Shown: positions 19,485-49,078 of the stretch, piece after piece
Layout: every line of letters begins with the position of its first letter
How positions within the stretch are numbered: the first letter of the stretch is position 1
From: Bifidobacterium sp. ESL0728
Lineage (GTDB): Bacteria > Actinomycetota > Actinomycetes > Actinomycetales > Bifidobacteriaceae
Direction of reading: 5' to 3'
Length of the DNA stretch: 64,000 bases
NCBI RefSeq assembly: GCF_029392015.1
Contig: NZ_CP113925.1
Span: 868,001-932,000, forward strand
Position numbers and translations under genes: made by a program
The notes under the pieces: model-generated
The model's database searches: none
Seen by the model: only the letters and a program-made list of their open reading frames with translations
Told to the model about the DNA's origin: nothing

Positions 19485-21083
<1,599 letters not shown>

Positions 21084-21120: not shown

Positions 21121-21222
21121 TAACTGACGTGGCGGGCTGGGATATACAATGCTGAGGCACCCTCCAGGCCGGTAGGCCAAGCTTTATGCCACAGCATCGC
21201 ATATCCCAGCCCGTCACTCAAC
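21121..21222 (-). repeat. Palindromic element, copy A
   Basis: A 102-bp inverted-repeat element lying after guaB. Read on the minus strand it starts GTTGAGTG, has arm core GGGCTGGGATATGCGATGCTG, an inner GGCC-TACC-GGCC hairpin, and a right arm CAGCATTGTATATCCCAGCCC ending CACGTCAGTTA. It shares this plan with copies B, D and E while the arm bases differ. Confidence 0.88.
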
Positions 21223-21306
21223 GGTTTATAGTGTTAATGATTTGTGTTGTCGCATTTCTCGTCTCTGCCTTGCAAATAGGGTATCGGGCGGCTTTATCAT
21301 TCTGTG

Positions 21307-21475
21307 GTTGAGTGGTGGGGTGGGGATATGCGATGTCAGACCGTAAAGACTTGGCCTGTGCAAAATCAGAGATTTTGCCTTCGCACTCGATACACCGCGC
21401 TCACTTCGCCTACAGAAAGTCCACTGGGCTTTCTGCTTAACGGCTCAGCCCAGAGCGTGTCGAGGCTATCGACTC
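21307..21475 (+). repeat. Palindromic element, degenerate copy C
   Basis: The left half (21307-21358) matches copies B and E closely, including GATATGCGATG and CCGTAAAGACTTGGCCTG. About 90 bp of unrelated sequence with two small hairpins then intervenes, and a fragment AGAGCGTGTC follows near 21452. The right arm with CATTGTATATC is missing, so the long stem cannot form. Confidence 0.7.
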
Positions 21476-21490
21476 TTTAACTCCGTATAG

Positions 21491-21595
21491 GTTGAGTGGT
21501 GGGGCTGGGATATGCGATGCTTGACCGTAAAGACTTGGCCTGAGCGGCCCGGAGCGTGTCAAGCATTGTATATCCCAGCCCCACCACGTCAGTAA
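21491..21595 (+). repeat. Palindromic element, copy B
   Basis: A 105-bp element with arms GGTGGGGCTGGGATATGCGATG and CATTGTATATCCCAGCCCC, an outer GTTGAGT/ACGTCAGT stem with one bulged G, and an inner GGCC-TGAGC-GGCC hairpin. Its 38-nt centre is identical to that of copy E 25 kb away. Confidence 0.9.
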
Positions 21596-21681: not shown

Positions 21682-22332
21682 ATGGTGAATGCTCAGGATG
21701 ACGAGACGTATTCGGCGGAGGATTCGCGGCTGATTTGGATCGACTGCGAGATGACCGGTCTCGATATCTTCGGCGGCGACGAGCTTGTGGAGGTCTCCGT
21801 GGTGCCGACCGATTTCAATCTCAAGGTGCTCGACGAAGGTGTGGACTATGTTATCAAGCCCTCGCAGAAGGCGGTCGACCACATGGGCGACTTCGTGCGC
21901 ACGATGCACACTCGTTCAGGATTGATCCACGAATGGGAGACCGGCCTGAGCCTGGCTGACGCCGAAAAGAAGGTCACCGACTACGTCGCCCGCTTTACGC
22001 CTGACGGGGTCAAGCCGTTGCTCGCCGGCAACACCATCGGAAGCGACAAGAAATTCCTCGACCACTTCATGCCAAGCTTCATGAGCCATTTGCACTATCG
22101 CAGCATCGACGTGAGCACCATCAAGGAACTCGCACGTCGTTGGTATCCGGCGGTCTATATGAACCGTCCCCCCAAGAATGGCGGCCATCGTGCGCTTGCT
22201 GACATCATCGAGTCACTTGATGAACTGCGCTACTATCGCGAGGCCTTCATGGCTCCGACCCCTGGCCCGGATGAAGCTCAGGCCAAGAAGATCGAGGCCG
22301 ACATCGAGGCCACAAGCCTGCTCAACAAGTAG
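21682..22332 (+). CDS. orn: Oligoribonuclease
   Basis: A 216-residue DEDDh 3'-5' exoribonuclease that degrades short RNAs, including linear dinucleotides. Acidic residues are in [41 protein letters not shown] and [18 protein letters not shown]. The length is slightly above usual, with a short acidic N-terminal lead. It lies downstream of three palindromic elements and upstream of a hairpin array. Confidence 0.95.
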
Positions 22333-22344
22333 ACGGTGACAAAT

Positions 22345-22560
22345 GGTGCTTTTCCCCTCAGCTGGTTGGTAGATAGCGGAGAAAAGCACTATTCCAGACC
22401 ATTTTTGGTGCTTTTCCCACGGATAGGGCACCAGACTGAGGAGAAAAGCACCATTTTGGGGCGTTTTTGGTGCTTTTCCCACAGTTTGAGCGTCGGAGTG
22501 AGGCGAAAAGCACCTTTTAGGGTTGATTGTGGTGCTTTTCCCACGGCATAGGGCAGTGGG
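22345..22560 (+). repeat. Hairpin array 1, 62-bp period
   Basis: Left arms GGTGCTTTTCCC start at 22345, 22407, 22469 and 22531, exactly 62 bp apart. Complementary right arms GAAAAGCAC(C) start at 22381, 22443 and 22505, again 62 bp apart. Between left and right arms are 24 variable bases, and between units about 16 T-rich bases. The fourth unit has only a degenerate right arm. The array fills the orn-helicase spacer. Confidence 0.9.
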
Positions 22561-26068: not shown

Positions 26069-26383
26069 TCTGATGCTGGCTAAACGGTAATGGAAAACGA
26101 ACGTCCCTCCATCAAATATTGCCGCGGGCTCGGTTGAAAATGCCAGCAAACCGGTCCTAAATGTACGCTTAAGGCCCTGTAAAATCCTAAATATTGATGT
26201 TTGGATAGTCTGTCTTATAAATCACTAATTTTCTGTTGAAATAAAACGTTTCCATCGATTATTCATGTATCATAAAAGGGTAATTGAAAATAAAACGTAA
26301 TTATTCTCAGTGTTGGGTGATTGCGTTTGCAACTGTCTCACGAAATAATGACGTTTTCGTGAAGTCATAGACGAAAGAAGGCA

Positions 26384-27235
26384 ATGATGCAGAATCTAAC
26401 GGTATTGGGGACGGGCACTCTCGGTTCCCAGATTATTTTCCAGTCGGCCTACAGTGGCAAGAACGTGGTCGCCTACGATATCAGCGACGAGATTCTTTCG
26501 AAGCTGCCGGCACGCTGGGAGCAGCTCAAGGACTGCTACAGGCGTGACGTCAAGGGCGTGACCGAGGAAAAGCTTGATGCGGCGGTTTCGCGAATCCGTC
26601 CGACGGCCGATATGAAGGATGCACTCAAGGATGCCGATATTGTTATCGAGGCGGTTCCGGAGCGTTTGGATATCAAGCAGGATACGTGGAAGAAGGTCAG
26701 TGAGAATGCGCCGGCCAAGACGATTTTCTGCACGAATTCGTCGACCCTGCCGCCGAGCAAGATCGCGCCGTTCACCGACCGTCCCGAGAAGTTCCTGTGC
26801 CTGCATTTCGCCAACGAGGTGTGGAAGTACAATACCGGCGAGGTGATGGTGCAGCCGAAGACCGATCCGAAGGTCTTTGAAGAGGTTGCGCAGTTTGCCG
26901 ATGAGATTGGCATGGTTCCGATCCGCATCAAGAAGGAACAGCCGGGTTATCTGCTCAACTCGCTGCTGGTTCCACTGCTTGATGCCGCGGCCGACCTGTG
27001 GGTTCGCGGTGTGGCCTCGTTCGAGGATATCGACAAGACCTGGCGTATCGCCACCGGTGCTCCTACCGGCCCGTTCGAGATCTTGGACACCGTGGGTATG
27101 ATGACCCCCTATAACCTCAACAAGGACGCCACTGATCCGGTCAAGAAGGAGTTCGCTCGTCGTCTGAAAGAGGATTATATCGACAAGGGCAAGATGGGCA
27201 AGATCTCCGGTCACGGTTTCTACGACTACGAGTGA
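26384..27235 (+). CDS. 3-hydroxyacyl-CoA dehydrogenase-like protein, copy 1
   Basis: A 283-residue NAD-dependent dehydrogenase. The Rossmann motif is LGTGTLG near residue 8, DADIVIEAVPERLDIK is at the cofactor edge, and the catalytic Ser and His lie in FCTNSSTLPPS and LCLHFAN. The helical C-terminal domain begins at LLNSLLVPLL. Bifidobacteria lack a known fatty-acid beta-oxidation pathway, so the substrate is unclear. A close paralogue follows 419 bp downstream. Two ATGs in tandem follow AAAGAAGG. Confidence 0.85.
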   Translation: MMQNLTVLGTGTLGSQIIFQSAYSGKNVVAYDISDEILSKLPARWEQLKDCYRRDVKGVTEEKLDAAVSRIRPTADMKDALKDADIVIEAVPERLDIKQDTWKKVSENAPAKTIFCTNSSTLPPSKIAPFTDRPEKFLCLHFANEVWKYNTGEVMVQPKTDPKVFEEVAQFADEIGMVPIRIKKEQPGYLLNSLLVPLLDAAADLWVRGVASFEDIDKTWRIATGAPTGPFEILDTVGMMTPYNLNKDATDPVKKEFARRLKEDYIDKGKMGKISGHGFYDYE

Positions 27236-27363
27236 TTGATCGCCTTTGTTCCTGCACTTCGATGGGGTGACTGCGTTCAAGGTAAGTCCAAATCATCCGG
27301 TTGAATGGGTCTGCGTTGAAACCCCAAGACAATAAGTGTGTTTATTTTCTTCAAGTCTAGAGT

Positions 27364-27397
27364 ATGGCGTCGCGTGCCTTCGGGTGCGTGGCGCCAT
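27364..27397 (+). terminator. Stem-loop after copy 1
   Basis: ATGGCG and CGCCAT enclose CGCGTGCC-TTCG-GGTGCGTG, a stem with a TTCG tetraloop and some G.T pairs. No clear T-run follows. The rest of the 419-bp gap is AT-rich and shows no gene. Confidence 0.5.
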
Positions 27398-27654
27398 TGT
27401 CATTTCTGCATGGCCGTTCTTGGGTTGGATGGATAAATATGATGTTTGAAAGAGCTTCGTTGTTGATCAAAAGTAATGATGTGTTATCAAAGTCACTGAA
27501 TTAGGCATCACAATGCCATATTTCCGATTAGAAAAACGTTACAATTAAAAGTAAGGAATGAATTACAAATTGGGATGATTTGTAGTCTTTCCTTGGAATT
27601 ATTGGGTTCGAGTTCTTGGCATATGGAACTTGAAACGATTTATAAAAGAAGGCA

Positions 27655-28509
27655 ATGATGCAGAATTTAACTGTTTTAGGTACGGGTACGCTGGGATCGC
27701 AGATTATCTTCCAATCGGCGTTCAAGGGCAAGAACGTGGTCGCATATGATATTAGCGACGAGATTCTGGCCAAGCTGCCGGCACGCTGGGAGCAGATAAA
27801 GGAACAGTATAAAGCCGATTTGCCGGATACCGATCCCAAGGCGCTCGACGATGCGGTAACCCGCATTCGTACGACAGCCGATATGAAGGACGCCCTGAAA
27901 GACGCGGATATTGTTATCGAGGCGGTTCCGGAGCGTTTGGATATCAAGCAGGATACGTGGAAGAAGGTCAGTGAGAATGCGCCGGCCAAGACGATTTTCT
28001 GCACCAATTCCTCGACCCTGCCGCCGAGCAAGATAGCGCCGTTTACCGACCGTCCTGACAAGTTCCTGTGCCTGCATTTCGCCAACCATGTCTGGAAGTT
28101 CAACACCGGCGAGGTGATGATGCAGCCGAAGACCGATCCGGCCGTATTCGAGGAGGTCGCCAAGTTCGCTGAGGAGATTGGCATGGTTCCGATCCGTATC
28201 AAGAAGGAACAACCGGGCTACGTGCTCAATTCGTTGCTCGTGCCGTTCCTCAACGATGCCGGCAAGCTTTGGGTCAAGGGTGTCGCTTCAATTGAGGATA
28301 TCGACGCGACCTGGCGTATCGCCACCGGTGCGCCGACCGGCCCGTTCCAGATCGACGACGCAATCGGCATGATGACCATGTACAACATCGACAAGGACAG
28401 CGAAGACCCCGACATCCGGGAATTCGCCAATCGTATGAAGACGGATTATATCGACAAGGGTTACATGGGCAAGAACGCCGGTCGTGGTTTCTACAACTAT
28501 CAGGACTGA
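27655..28509 (+). CDS. 3-hydroxyacyl-CoA dehydrogenase-like protein, copy 2
   Basis: A 284-residue paralogue of the preceding gene, matching it at most positions with the same catalytic segments; the largest differences are at residues about 48-66 and in the C-terminal 60. A 98-nt tract (27907-28004) is identical to 26636-26733, although flanking codons differ. Its ribosome site and first codons (AAAGAAGGCAATGATGCAG) are also the same as in copy 1. Separate promoters are likely, given the 419-bp gap. Confidence 0.85.
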   Translation: MMQNLTVLGTGTLGSQIIFQSAFKGKNVVAYDISDEILAKLPARWEQIKEQYKADLPDTDPKALDDAVTRIRTTADMKDALKDADIVIEAVPERLDIKQDTWKKVSENAPAKTIFCTNSSTLPPSKIAPFTDRPDKFLCLHFANHVWKFNTGEVMMQPKTDPAVFEEVAKFAEEIGMVPIRIKKEQPGYVLNSLLVPFLNDAGKLWVKGVASIEDIDATWRIATGAPTGPFQIDDAIGMMTMYNIDKDSEDPDIREFANRMKTDYIDKGYMGKNAGRGFYNYQD

Positions 28510-44913: not shown

Positions 44914-45903
44914 ATGGCACATAAAAATGAATCGGACGGGCTGGATATTCCCAATCGGATCCATGCAAGGCCGGTGCATCGTCCCGGTTCATTGATCGCG
45001 GGGATCATCGTCGCATTCTTCGCGGTGATGCTGGTGCATGGCATGGTGACCAACGGCAATTTCGAATGGCCGATTGTCTGGAAATACCTGTTCAATGAGC
45101 ACGTCCTGAACGGCATCGGATGGACGCTCGTGCTGACGGTCACCTCCATGCTCATCGCCATCGTGCTGGCCGTGCTGCTCGCCGTGATGCGCAAGTCCGT
45201 CAATTCGGTGCTGCGCGGGGTCAGCTGGTTCTGGATCTGGTTCTTCCGTGGCACCCCAATCTACACGCAGTTGGTGTTCTGGGGCCTCTTTTCGGTGCTG
45301 ATTCCCACGATTTCGTTGGGCATTCCCTTTACTCACATCAACTTTTGGTCGATGAGCACCGAACAGATCAACAAGCTCATTTCCCCTGGTTTCCTCGCCG
45401 CGATGCTCGGTTTGGCATTGAACGAATCCGCCTATCTGGCCGAAATCGTGCGTGCCGGCTTGGAAGCCGTCGACCCCGGGCAAAGTGAGGCGGCAGAGGC
45501 GCTTGGTATGCCGCGCACGATGATTATGCGCCGCGTGATTTTGCCGCAGGCCATGCGTATCATCGTCCCGCCCACCGGAAACGAGGTCATCAGCATGTTG
45601 AAGACGACTTCGCTGGTTTCGGCGGTGCCGTTCAGCTTGGAAATCCAGTTTGCCACCAATGCCATCGCCGCCCGTATTTACAAGCCGATTCCGTTGTTGC
45701 TCGTGGCCTGCTTCTGGTATCTGGTGATCACCTCAGTGCTCATGGTGGTGCAATCGTGGATCGAGCGCTATTTCGGCAAGGGCTTCAACGAGGGTTCCAA
45801 CGGACCCAGCGAGGGCGGCAGTGACGCCAAAGACGAGAAGCCGTCCGCAAAGGTAGCCGAGGGCAATGAGGGTGGCACCACATTCCTCGGACTCAACGCG
45901 TGA
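44914..45903 (+). CDS. Polar amino-acid ABC transporter permease
   Basis: A 329-residue HisM/GlnP-type permease with five or so membrane segments. The EAA loop is [32 protein letters not shown]. An N-terminal cytoplasmic lead of about 30 residues and a Glu/Gly/Ser-rich tail of about 45 flank the core. ATG 44914 follows GGGAGAGG. It couples to the ATPase gene that follows. Confidence 0.9.
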
Positions 45904-45920
45904 AGGAAGACGGGACAGAG

Positions 45921-46802
<882 letters not shown>

Positions 46803-46839: not shown

Positions 46840-46940
46840 CTGGCGTAGCTGGGCGGAGATATACAATGTTCGGGACGCTCCTTGGCCGCTCGGCCGTGTC
46901 TTACGCCCGAACATCGCATATCTCCGCCCAGCTACTCAAC
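46840..46940 (-). repeat. Palindromic element, copy D
   Basis: Same plan as copies A, B and E on the minus strand, with different arms: AGCTGGGCGGAG pairs with CTCCGCCCAGCT, the GATATGCGATG/CATTGTATATC core is kept, TTCGGG pairs with CCCGAA, and the inner hairpin is GGCC-GAGC-GGCC. The outer stem keeps the bulged G. Confidence 0.88.
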
Positions 46941-46970: not shown

Positions 46971-47075
46971 GTTGAGTGGTGGGGTGGGGATATGCGATGG
47001 CCGACCGTAAAGACTTGGCCTGAGCGGCCCGGAGCGTGTCGGCCATTGTATATCCCCACCCCACCGCGTCAGTTA
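46971..47075 (+). repeat. Palindromic element, copy E
   Basis: A 105-bp element facing copy D. Arms are GGTGGGGTGGGGATATGCGATG and CATTGTATATCCCCACCCC, then GCCGAC with GTCGGC. Its 38-nt centre is identical to copy B. It lies about 110 bp before glmS. Confidence 0.9.
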
Positions 47076-47188: not shown

Positions 47189-49078
47189 ATGTGTGGAATC
47201 GTTGGATTTGCAGGAAACAAGACAGCTTGCGGGAAACCGTTGGAAGTGTGCATGCAGGGACTCAAACGCCTCGAATACCGGGGATATGATTCGGCCGGAG
47301 TCGCGTTGGTGGCGCCTGGAATGGAAACGGCCGCCGTACGCAAGAAATCCGGAAGACTCGCCAATCTCGCTTCCGACATCGAACGCAGCCCCATGCCCGA
47401 TGCAACTGTAGGGATCGGCCATACCCGTTGGGCCACCAATGGCGAACCCAGCGATGTCAACGCGCATCCACATACCAGCCAGGATGGCAAGATCGCCATC
47501 ATTCACAACGGCATCATCGAGAACGCCGAGAAACTGCGTCTCGACTTGCAGACCGAAGGCTATACGTTCCTTTCGGCCACCGACACCGAAGTGGCCGCGA
47601 AACTGCTCGGCAAGATCGCCAATACCATCATCAAGGAGACCGGAAAGCCCGACCTGTTCGAGGCATTGCGCCGTATGGCCCGTATGCTTTCCGGGGCATT
47701 TACGATTCTGGCCGTTGACGTTCGTCAGCCGGAAATCGTCGTCGGCGCGCGTCACGATTCGCCGCTCGTCGTAGGCCTTGGCGATGGCGAGAACTTCCTG
47801 GGCTCCGATGTGGCCGCGTTTGTCGCTTACACCAAGGAAGCGATGGAACTTGATCAGGATCAGGCGGTCTGCATTTCCGGTGACAACGTCACCGTCACCG
47901 ATTTCGATGGGAACCCCGTCACCGATTCCAAACGTTTCACCGTCGACTGGGATGCCAGCGCCTCCGAAAAAGGCGGATGGGATTCCTTCATGGACAAGGA
48001 AATTCATGAGGAACCGGCGGCGGTGCGCAACACCTTGCTTGGCCGTTTTAACGAAGACGACGAAATCAAGCTTGACGAGCTGCATATCGACCCGGAAGTC
48101 TTCAAACAGATCGACAAGATCATCGTGGTGGCCTGTGGCACCGCCAGTTACGCCGGTATGGTGGCCAAATACGCCATCGAGCACTGGGTGCGTATCCCCG
48201 TCGAAGTCGAGCTGGCGCACGAATTCCGTTATCGTGACCCGATTCTGACCCCACGTACGCTGGTCGTCGCCATCTCGCAGTCCGGGGAGACCATGGACAC
48301 GCTGATGGCCCTGCGTCACGCCCGCGAACAAGGTTCCCGAGTACTTGCCATTTGCAACACGCAAGGTTCCACGATTCCGCGCGAAGCCGACGCCGTGCTC
48401 TATACGCACGCCGGCCCCGAAATCGCCGTGGCATCGACGAAAGCCTTTGTCGCCCAGATTATCGCCGCTTACTTGCTTGGACTCTATTTTGCCCAAGTCA
48501 AGAACACGCTCTATCGTGATGAGATTCATCAGATTTTGGATCAGCTCAAGGCCATGCCCGAGAAGATCCAATGGGTGCTCGACAACGATGCCGAAACCGT
48601 TAGCGATGCGGCGAAGAAGCTCCTGAACGCCAAATCATTCCTCTTCCTCGGACGCCACGTCGGCTACCCGGTGGCGCTGGAAGGTGCCCTCAAACTCAAG
48701 GAAATCGCCTATACCTTTACCGAAGGGTTCGCGGCTGGCGAGCTCAAGCATGGCCCGATCGCGCTGGTCGAGCCGGGGGAGCCGGTGGTGATCATCGTCC
48801 CGTCCTCGCGTGGGCGCAATGTGCTTCACAACAAGGTCATTTCCGCCATCGAAGAGGTCAAGGCTCGTGGCGCGTTCACCATCGCGGTGGCCGAACGAGG
48901 CGACCCCGACGCCGAGAAATATGCGGATATCGTCTTCTGGCGTCCTGAGTGCGCGACGCTGCTGAGCCCGTTGGTCGATGTGGTTCCGTTGCAGCTCTTT
49001 GCGCTCGATGTGGCCACGCTCAAAGGTTATGACGTCGACAAGCCTCGCAATCTCGCCAAGTCCGTGACGGTTGAGTGA
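47189..49078 (+). CDS. glmS: Glutamine-fructose-6-phosphate aminotransferase (isomerising)
   Basis: A 629-residue enzyme that makes glucosamine 6-phosphate from fructose 6-phosphate and glutamine, the entry to peptidoglycan amino sugars. The N-terminal Cys2 (MCGIVGF) is the glutaminase nucleophile; the two SIS domains carry CGTASYAG, SQSGETMDT and AAGELKHGPIAL; the C-terminus ends KSVTVE. No glmS ribozyme is visible. The following gene begins 6 bp later. Confidence 0.97.
   Translation: MCGIVGFAGNKTACGKPLEVCMQGLKRLEYRGYDSAGVALVAPGMETAAVRKKSGRLANLASDIERSPMPDATVGIGHTRWATNGEPSDVNAHPHTSQDGKIAIIHNGIIENAEKLRLDLQTEGYTFLSATDTEVAAKLLGKIANTIIKETGKPDLFEALRRMARMLSGAFTILAVDVRQPEIVVGARHDSPLVVGLGDGENFLGSDVAAFVAYTKEAMELDQDQAVCISGDNVTVTDFDGNPVTDSKRFTVDWDASASEKGGWDSFMDKEIHEEPAAVRNTLLGRFNEDDEIKLDELHIDPEVFKQIDKIIVVACGTASYAGMVAKYAIEHWVRIPVEVELAHEFRYRDPILTPRTLVVAISQSGETMDTLMALRHAREQGSRVLAICNTQGSTIPREADAVLYTHAGPEIAVASTKAFVAQIIAAYLLGLYFAQVKNTLYRDEIHQILDQLKAMPEKIQWVLDNDAETVSDAAKKLLNAKSFLFLGRHVGYPVALEGALKLKEIAYTFTEGFAAGELKHGPIALVEPGEPVVIIVPSSRGRNVLHNKVISAIEEVKARGAFTIAVAERGDPDAEKYADIVFWRPECATLLSPLVDVVPLQLFALDVATLKGYDVDKPRNLAKSVTVE

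Follow-up and report, generated by a model that had tools for sequence, protein, structure and literature searches.

The window analysed here, a 64-kb stretch of the 2.59-Mb single-contig genome of Bifidobacterium sp. ESL0728, carries four intact hairpins in two intergenic regions (Table 1). Hairpins A and B lie between guaB and orn, and hairpins D and E between a gene for an amino-acid ABC transporter ATPase and glmS. Since in each region the first hairpin is on the minus strand and the second on the plus strand, they form two divergent pairs. The sequence-only reading had described all four as variants of one plan, and direct reading of each copy bears this out: an outer stem, a variable arm, a GATATGCGATG/CATTGTATATC core containing two G.T pairs, an inner stem, an internal loop and a GGCC/GGCC hairpin. 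That reading had also given the outer stem as GTTGAGT/ACGTCAG throughout; the outer stem is indeed present in every copy, but D has ACGCCAG and E has GCGTCAG in place of ACGTCAG. Folding, done for B and D, gave -73.8 kcal/mol (z -9.8) and -70.9 kcal/mol (z -10.3), respectively. With at most one mismatch, CATTGTATATC occurs four times in the window against 0.47 expected (0 of 100 shuffles), and GATATGCGATG six times against 1.57 expected (3 of 100 shuffles reach six).

Table 1. Hairpins of the window and the genes that flank them
Feature	Positions	Strand	Description	Basis
Hairpin A	21124-21222	minus	loop type I (CATAAAGCTTGGCCTACCGGCCTGGAGGGTG); adjoins 3' end of IMP dehydrogenase gene	read directly; model match 21130-21216, 100.2 bits
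Hairpin C	21307-21461	plus	long-apical-loop variant; 5' arm whole, 3' arm missing	read directly
Hairpin B	21491-21592	plus	loop type II (CGTAAAGACTTGGCCTGAGCGGCCCGGAGCGTG); upstream of oligoribonuclease	read directly; model match 21498-21585, 94.0 bits
Hairpin D	46840-46940	minus	loop type III; adjoins 3' end of amino-acid ABC ATPase gene	model match 46847-46933, 95.2 bits
Hairpin E	46971-47072	plus	loop type II; upstream of glmS	model match 46978-47065, 93.4 bits
IMP dehydrogenase (guaB)	19494-21083	plus	flanking gene	TIGR01302 above cut-off
Oligoribonuclease (orn)	21682-22332	plus	flanking gene	NF003765 above cut-off
Amino-acid ABC transporter ATPase, GlnQ/EhuA-like	45900-46802	plus	flanking gene	best models below equivalog cut-offs
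glmS	47189-49078	plus	flanking gene	TIGR01135 above cut-off

Beyond the four copies noted earlier, the window holds a fifth, C, which sits between A and B and has about 90 nt inserted in its apical loop. The 5' half of C recurs in B and E, and the orthologous region of another species (G025) contains a whole long-loop copy. The composite A-C-B is present at two loci of this genome, in opposite orientation. Inserts of about 80-100 nt in apical loops were seen at window positions 21357-21448 and in further hairpins at L151:2636-2804, L179:3143-3304, L060:868-1041 and L191:940-1060. They are made up of GAGYCGTTAA, a hairpin and TAGRCGAAGTGAG, the Y/R changes preserving pairing in those copies that were read, and they often also contain TGCAAAATC-GATTTTGC; judged by eye, the insert of G001 and that of our clade point in opposite directions with respect to the host loop. 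The insert may represent a second, nested hairpin family. Elsewhere in the window, three tandem repeats of about 62 nt (GAGAAAAGCACC...GGTGCTTTTCCCAC) follow orn and are immediately preceded by an inverted copy (22341-22556), and two adjacent similar genes (26374-28142) form direct repeats of 85-90% identity at a spacing of 1271.

Stem covariation and the strand that folds

The stem was analysed in two sets of copies. The first (A3) comprises 34 copies from the clade of our genome, picked by the exact core, so that core pairs were unable to vary. Even so restricted, it shows double changes at 13 of 29 pairs (136 cells versus 38 in shuffles), with only five one-sided standard changes among 986 cells. 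The second (A6) comprises 88 of the 95 short copies of other species (G145, G025, G066, G071 and G001), leaving out seven length outliers, three long-loop copies and the 21 copies of our own genome. Here both sides change at 28 of 35 pairs, pairing is retained in 98.7% of cells, all of UA, AU, GC and CG are found at 22 of 25 outer stem positions, and double-change cells number 793 as opposed to 178 after shuffling. When the partner is slid by one column, only 39.1% or 30.5% of cells pair, and slides of up to three columns never give more than 44.8%. The sequence of the stem is thus nearly free, whereas its pairing is not. The apical domain, on the other hand, hardly varies: no variation occurs in the GGCC/GGCC pairs or in the C-G pair beneath, and almost none in the apical internal loop. 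The covariation is beyond chance both versus shuffles and versus slid partners. What had been proposed from four copies, namely that both sides of the arms change together and that the fold is selected, thus holds in much larger sets of copies.

The remaining mismatches show which strand folds. Over the 24 outer pairs of 119 copies, read on the strand carrying CCGTA...GGAGCG, there are 110 G.T and 15 A.C mismatches; leaving out our own genome, in which two G.T pairs are a fixed part of the core, gives 66 and 7. The excess is similar in copies antisense to both neighbouring genes (24 versus 2) and in copies sense to both (25 versus 4), while the convergent places (5 versus 1) are too few for a verdict. 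To lessen model bias, we also searched 60 loci with the apical motif only, a test that is not fully independent because the loci themselves had been fetched by model matches. This search gave 90 matches, of which 89 form 20-24 of the 24 Watson-Crick pairs and the last forms six; among these copies G.T outnumbers A.C by 58 to 3 (p 3e-14). When the arm of one copy is paired with the arm of another, the mean is 12.3 of 24 pairs and the maximum 21, with 4% of combinations at 18 or more. The excess of G.T over A.C on one strand means that the selected hairpin is strand-specific, either RNA or one strand of DNA, and its similar size in antisense and sense copies means that the selected strand is not that of the host mRNA. 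A double-stranded cruciform, as well as symmetric template-switch correction, would yield equal counts, and the inequality therefore argues against both. Three points are thus established: a single strand folds, the apical domain is constrained and the direction of the host mRNA is irrelevant.

Distribution, arrangement and age of the family

The exact core-pair pattern is found at eight places in our genome, with none for the reversed pattern, and in 8 of 119 genomes, which all belong to one genus; the core pair also occurs in Bifidobacterium sp. ESL0784 and in MAG B-bin1. To look further we used two covariance models, R1 built from the 34 copies and R2 from five distant species. At E<=0.01, R1 returned 32 rows in our genome, of which 11 are opposite-strand repeats of the same places, leaving 21 distinct copies, and these lie at 13 places. 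Within the genus, R1 matched 71 of 112 genomes at E<=0.001 and R2 matched 70 of 112 species genomes at E<=1e-6, the other 42 giving no match; these searches used stricter Infernal filters, with about 40 scored candidates per genome, so that absences and high counts are approximate. Copy number varies from none matched to 55 or more distinct places (G145). Among 297 genomes sampled across 94 genera of the order, R1 matched five at E<=1e-6, all of them Bifidobacterium, a genus to which 14 of the rows listed belong; in a sample of the class (394 genomes), the single R2 match was our own genome. Accordingly, neither sample gave a match in another genus, and for the queries given there was none in plasmids, phages or viral contigs. 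The family, far from being rare or confined to one strain, is part of bifidobacterial genomes throughout the genus.

The sequence-only reading recognised no named family in these hairpins, and the same holds for Rfam: at gathering score, only tRNA was found in the window, and the hairpins of six loci searched at E<=1 match only miRNA models, far below gathering. A match resembling a TPP riboswitch (L060:1635-1752; 44.6 bits, against a gathering score of 54.3) lies just downstream of one hairpin. No description of the family was found in the open-access papers searched, including the available parts of PMC2430713, PMC3733652, PMC12306157, PMC8040213, PMC2864571, PMC8355165 and PMC3116915, and the terms searched for are absent from PMC2267715.

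Arrangement was studied in our genome and in 98 copies from 60 fetched loci of five other species (67 of 165 rows were dropped as opposite-strand repeats of the same places), with genes called by a home-made codon-usage script. Neighbouring copies no more than 700 nt apart are divergent in 28 of 28 pairs of the other species, with spacers of 38-398 nt, and in seven of eight pairs of our genome, the eighth being tandem. In G058, the spacer of a hairpin pair (L189, ~700-810) contains an inverted repeat, GCGAATAGCTRCCGCA...TGCGGCAGCTATTCGC, and a related motif is present in a spacer of G025 (L149). With respect to the neighbouring genes, 42 of the 119 copies are antisense to both, 38 sense to both, 22 convergent and 5 divergent, 8 overlap a predicted gene (111 do not) and 4 are incomplete. 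Orientation relative to neighbouring genes is thus neutral, and the neighbours are mixed, in contrast to the consistent sense orientation upstream of one gene class that would characterise a cis-regulatory RNA. Divergent (promoter) intergenic regions make up 5 of 61 regions with an element versus 32 of 106 without (p 0.0009, the same fetched loci serving as the baseline); put the other way, of the intergenic regions in these loci that measure 120 bp or more, elements occupy 5 of 37 divergent ones as opposed to 56 of 130 others. The 3' side is closer to a gene in 99 of 114 copies, at a median of 45.5 nt.

The flanks carry little common sequence. The 98-copy profile shows a weak consensus of GAG before the stem and CGGNC after it, while CGTC, seen mainly in the clade of our genome, was rejected on this profile as a family-wide tag. 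An own promoter on the element was likewise rejected, as the 70 nt upstream show no sigma-70-like enrichment (best match 6.84 of 12 versus 6.92 in shuffled sequence). There is a small peak of TANNNT at -20 (8 of 119 copies versus a mean of 1.5 per offset) and a weak preference for T at -16 and -15. No U tract follows the stem, T being at 0.02-0.24 from +1 to +12.

Many of the loci are shared between species. Clustering of neighbour proteins shows that 10 of 13 loci of our genome have the same neighbours as element loci of G025, and those at glmS, dnaG-dgt, prfA and sufC-sufS recur in more distant species. Among low-copy genomes, 29 of the places found were examined, and eight of these genomes have kept some copies where other species have them, at sufC-sufS and prfA and next to genes resembling nrdD, rpsA and parB (the first two of these last named by eye, parB by a gene-model match). 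On the sufC side, a copy in the same orientation is present in five species, and the stems differ yet pair. Stem identity is 57.8% for orthologous copies (12 pairs), as opposed to 50.7% within genomes and 46.5% when all pairs of copies from different species are taken, the corresponding loop values being 87.2, 88.2 and 83.8%. By these figures inheritance is visible but weak and genome-wide homogenisation of loops is slight on average, so that the case for exchange of modules rests on local examples. Between the conserved edges of the guaB-orn region, compared in seven species, copy number, loop type and arms all differ. G058 has three copies with an identical 65-nt core and loop and with differing arms, two of which match copies of our own genome having matching flanks. 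To us both cases suggest that hairpin modules were exchanged among sites that themselves stayed fixed. The ABC ATPase-glmS region holds a pair in G145 and none in the intergenic stretch of G071 and G066. In the guaB-orn region of G149 (L050, ~700-1350) there are also an extra degenerate hairpin and an apparent short open frame, absent from the six other species compared.

Possible nature of the family

Several known systems invite comparison. ERIC elements are imperfect palindromes of about 100-130 bp located between genes, and their copies have a common stem sequence. Like ERIC and other long MITE-like palindromes, the bifidobacterial hairpins are long and intergenic; unlike them, they have a stem that is nearly unconstrained except for its pairing. 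An attC reading was rejected, since the attC-like motif GTTRRRY lies on what we take to be the wrong side of the stem. MIC/RIT elements, known from B. longum, are also found in Bifidobacterium and have a palindrome and an inverted repeat at their ends. However, the inverted repeat and palindrome among the printed sequences available in PMC2430713 are, by eye, unlike the hairpins, and the three tandem tyrosine recombinase genes that such an element needs between its repeats contrast with pair spacers of only 38-398 nt. Together with the lack of a recombinase trio in our genome, which has five separate Phage_integrase matches, this led us to reject MIC/RIT.

The closest parallel is with REP, REPIN and BIME elements of the GTAG and CGTC types. 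According to the available parts of PMC3733652 and PMC3116915, these too are intergenic palindromes, occur mostly as inverted dimers and often as heterodimers, and show compensatory changes; for GTAG REPs, the RAYT transposase recognises single-stranded REP DNA. The bifidobacterial hairpins likewise are multicopy intergenic palindromes with the inverted dimer as the main unit, but they measure about 100 nt rather than 20-40, with stems of ~25-30 bp versus 8-9 bp for CGTC REPs (PMC3733652, available part). They also differ in having a conserved apical domain and in lacking both a family-wide GTAG or CGTC end tag and a link to a Y1 transposase. The terms 'Actinobacteria' and 'Bifidobacterium' did not turn up in the searchable part of PMC3733652, which does describe CGTC elements that are also without a known transposase. 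Because two defining features of REP, the end tag and RAYT, are not associated with it, we file the family as an interspersed palindromic repeat and not as REP. Our best reading is that of a new type: a long rod-shaped hairpin of ~100 nt in which a presumed recognition domain at the apex is conserved, while the stem of ~25-30 bp may take any sequence as long as it is paired.

As to how such a hairpin persists, we propose that the family works in the manner of REPIN/BIME, being spread or overwritten through a one-strand hairpin intermediate; we consider this about evenly poised between right and wrong. A putative factor would recognise the hairpin of one strand, either as single-stranded DNA or as its RNA, via the apical domain, and copies would spread, or old sites would be repeatedly overwritten, through the folded intermediate. 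Given such a passage, only well-paired copies might persist, and singles and broken copies such as C might be remnants. Passage through a single-stranded hairpin fits the strand, the apical constraint, the irrelevance of host mRNA direction and the dimers. Several observations count against it. Many loci are old, whereas a purely selfish element would be expected to disappear from them more often; no clean empty site at which a target-site duplication might be read came to light; loop homogenisation within genomes is weak on average; and no transposase partner was found. Y1 transposases (RAYT) are encoded in 7 of 112 genomes of the genus and reverse transcriptases in 8 of 112, with neither in our own genome, and both were rejected, the latter as a general partner. 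Among 165 neighbour proteins in 101 clusters, a single cluster occurs at two sites of one genome, and it is permease-like by eye, not a transposase.

The age of the loci would suit a multi-copy structured RNA better. Each element would then be a gene, or part of a UTR, whose hairpin RNA is recognised by RNase III or an RNA-binding protein, and selection on the host would keep it in place. Covariation at 28 of 35 pairs, G.U-type mismatches prevailing over A.C on one strand, the almost invariant apical internal loop and loci common to distant species all agree with this account, and the TANNNT peak and the T preference upstream could be a promoter remnant. Yet the upstream 70 nt are without sigma-70-like enrichment, the strand bias is the same in copies antisense to both neighbours, and 42 of 112 species gave no match under the stricter filters. 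In addition, G.U pairs in the hairpins seem rarer than in ordinary RNA helices. We therefore regard such an RNA as possible but somewhat unlikely.

Mobile hairpins might also home into hairpins: a strand-specific, loop-recognising factor would copy the core and apical part into resident hairpins, so that sites and outer arms stay, loops are overwritten and the arms of the stem are re-templated from each other. This idea is distinctly speculative, and we think it probably wrong. That the elements are bidirectional terminators of transcription, or strong hairpins of a generic kind at the ends of genes, is more doubtful still; this would suit the intergenic location, the avoidance of divergent regions and the short distance from the 3' side to a gene, but the stem is not followed by a U tract, the apical loop is conserved far beyond what a terminator needs, and symmetric use would not yield a mismatch bias on one strand. 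Finally, it is very improbable that palindromes under no selection are kept perfect by template-switch (quasipalindrome) correction in replication, for although nearly all changes are double, as the few one-sided changes in A3 illustrate, symmetric correction predicts G.T to equal A.C instead of the 58 to 3 observed, in both genomic orientations, two core G.T pairs stand uncorrected in 34 of 34 A3 copies (picked by that very core), and 89 of 90 apical motifs located without the stem have a paired one.

Whichever of these accounts applies, stem covariation in the family is near saturation, with a defined strand to test. The family makes the function of REP-like palindromes testable in a genus whose species are mostly without Y1 transposases; it also provides a natural set of loci for watching the exchange of loops and arms between hairpins.
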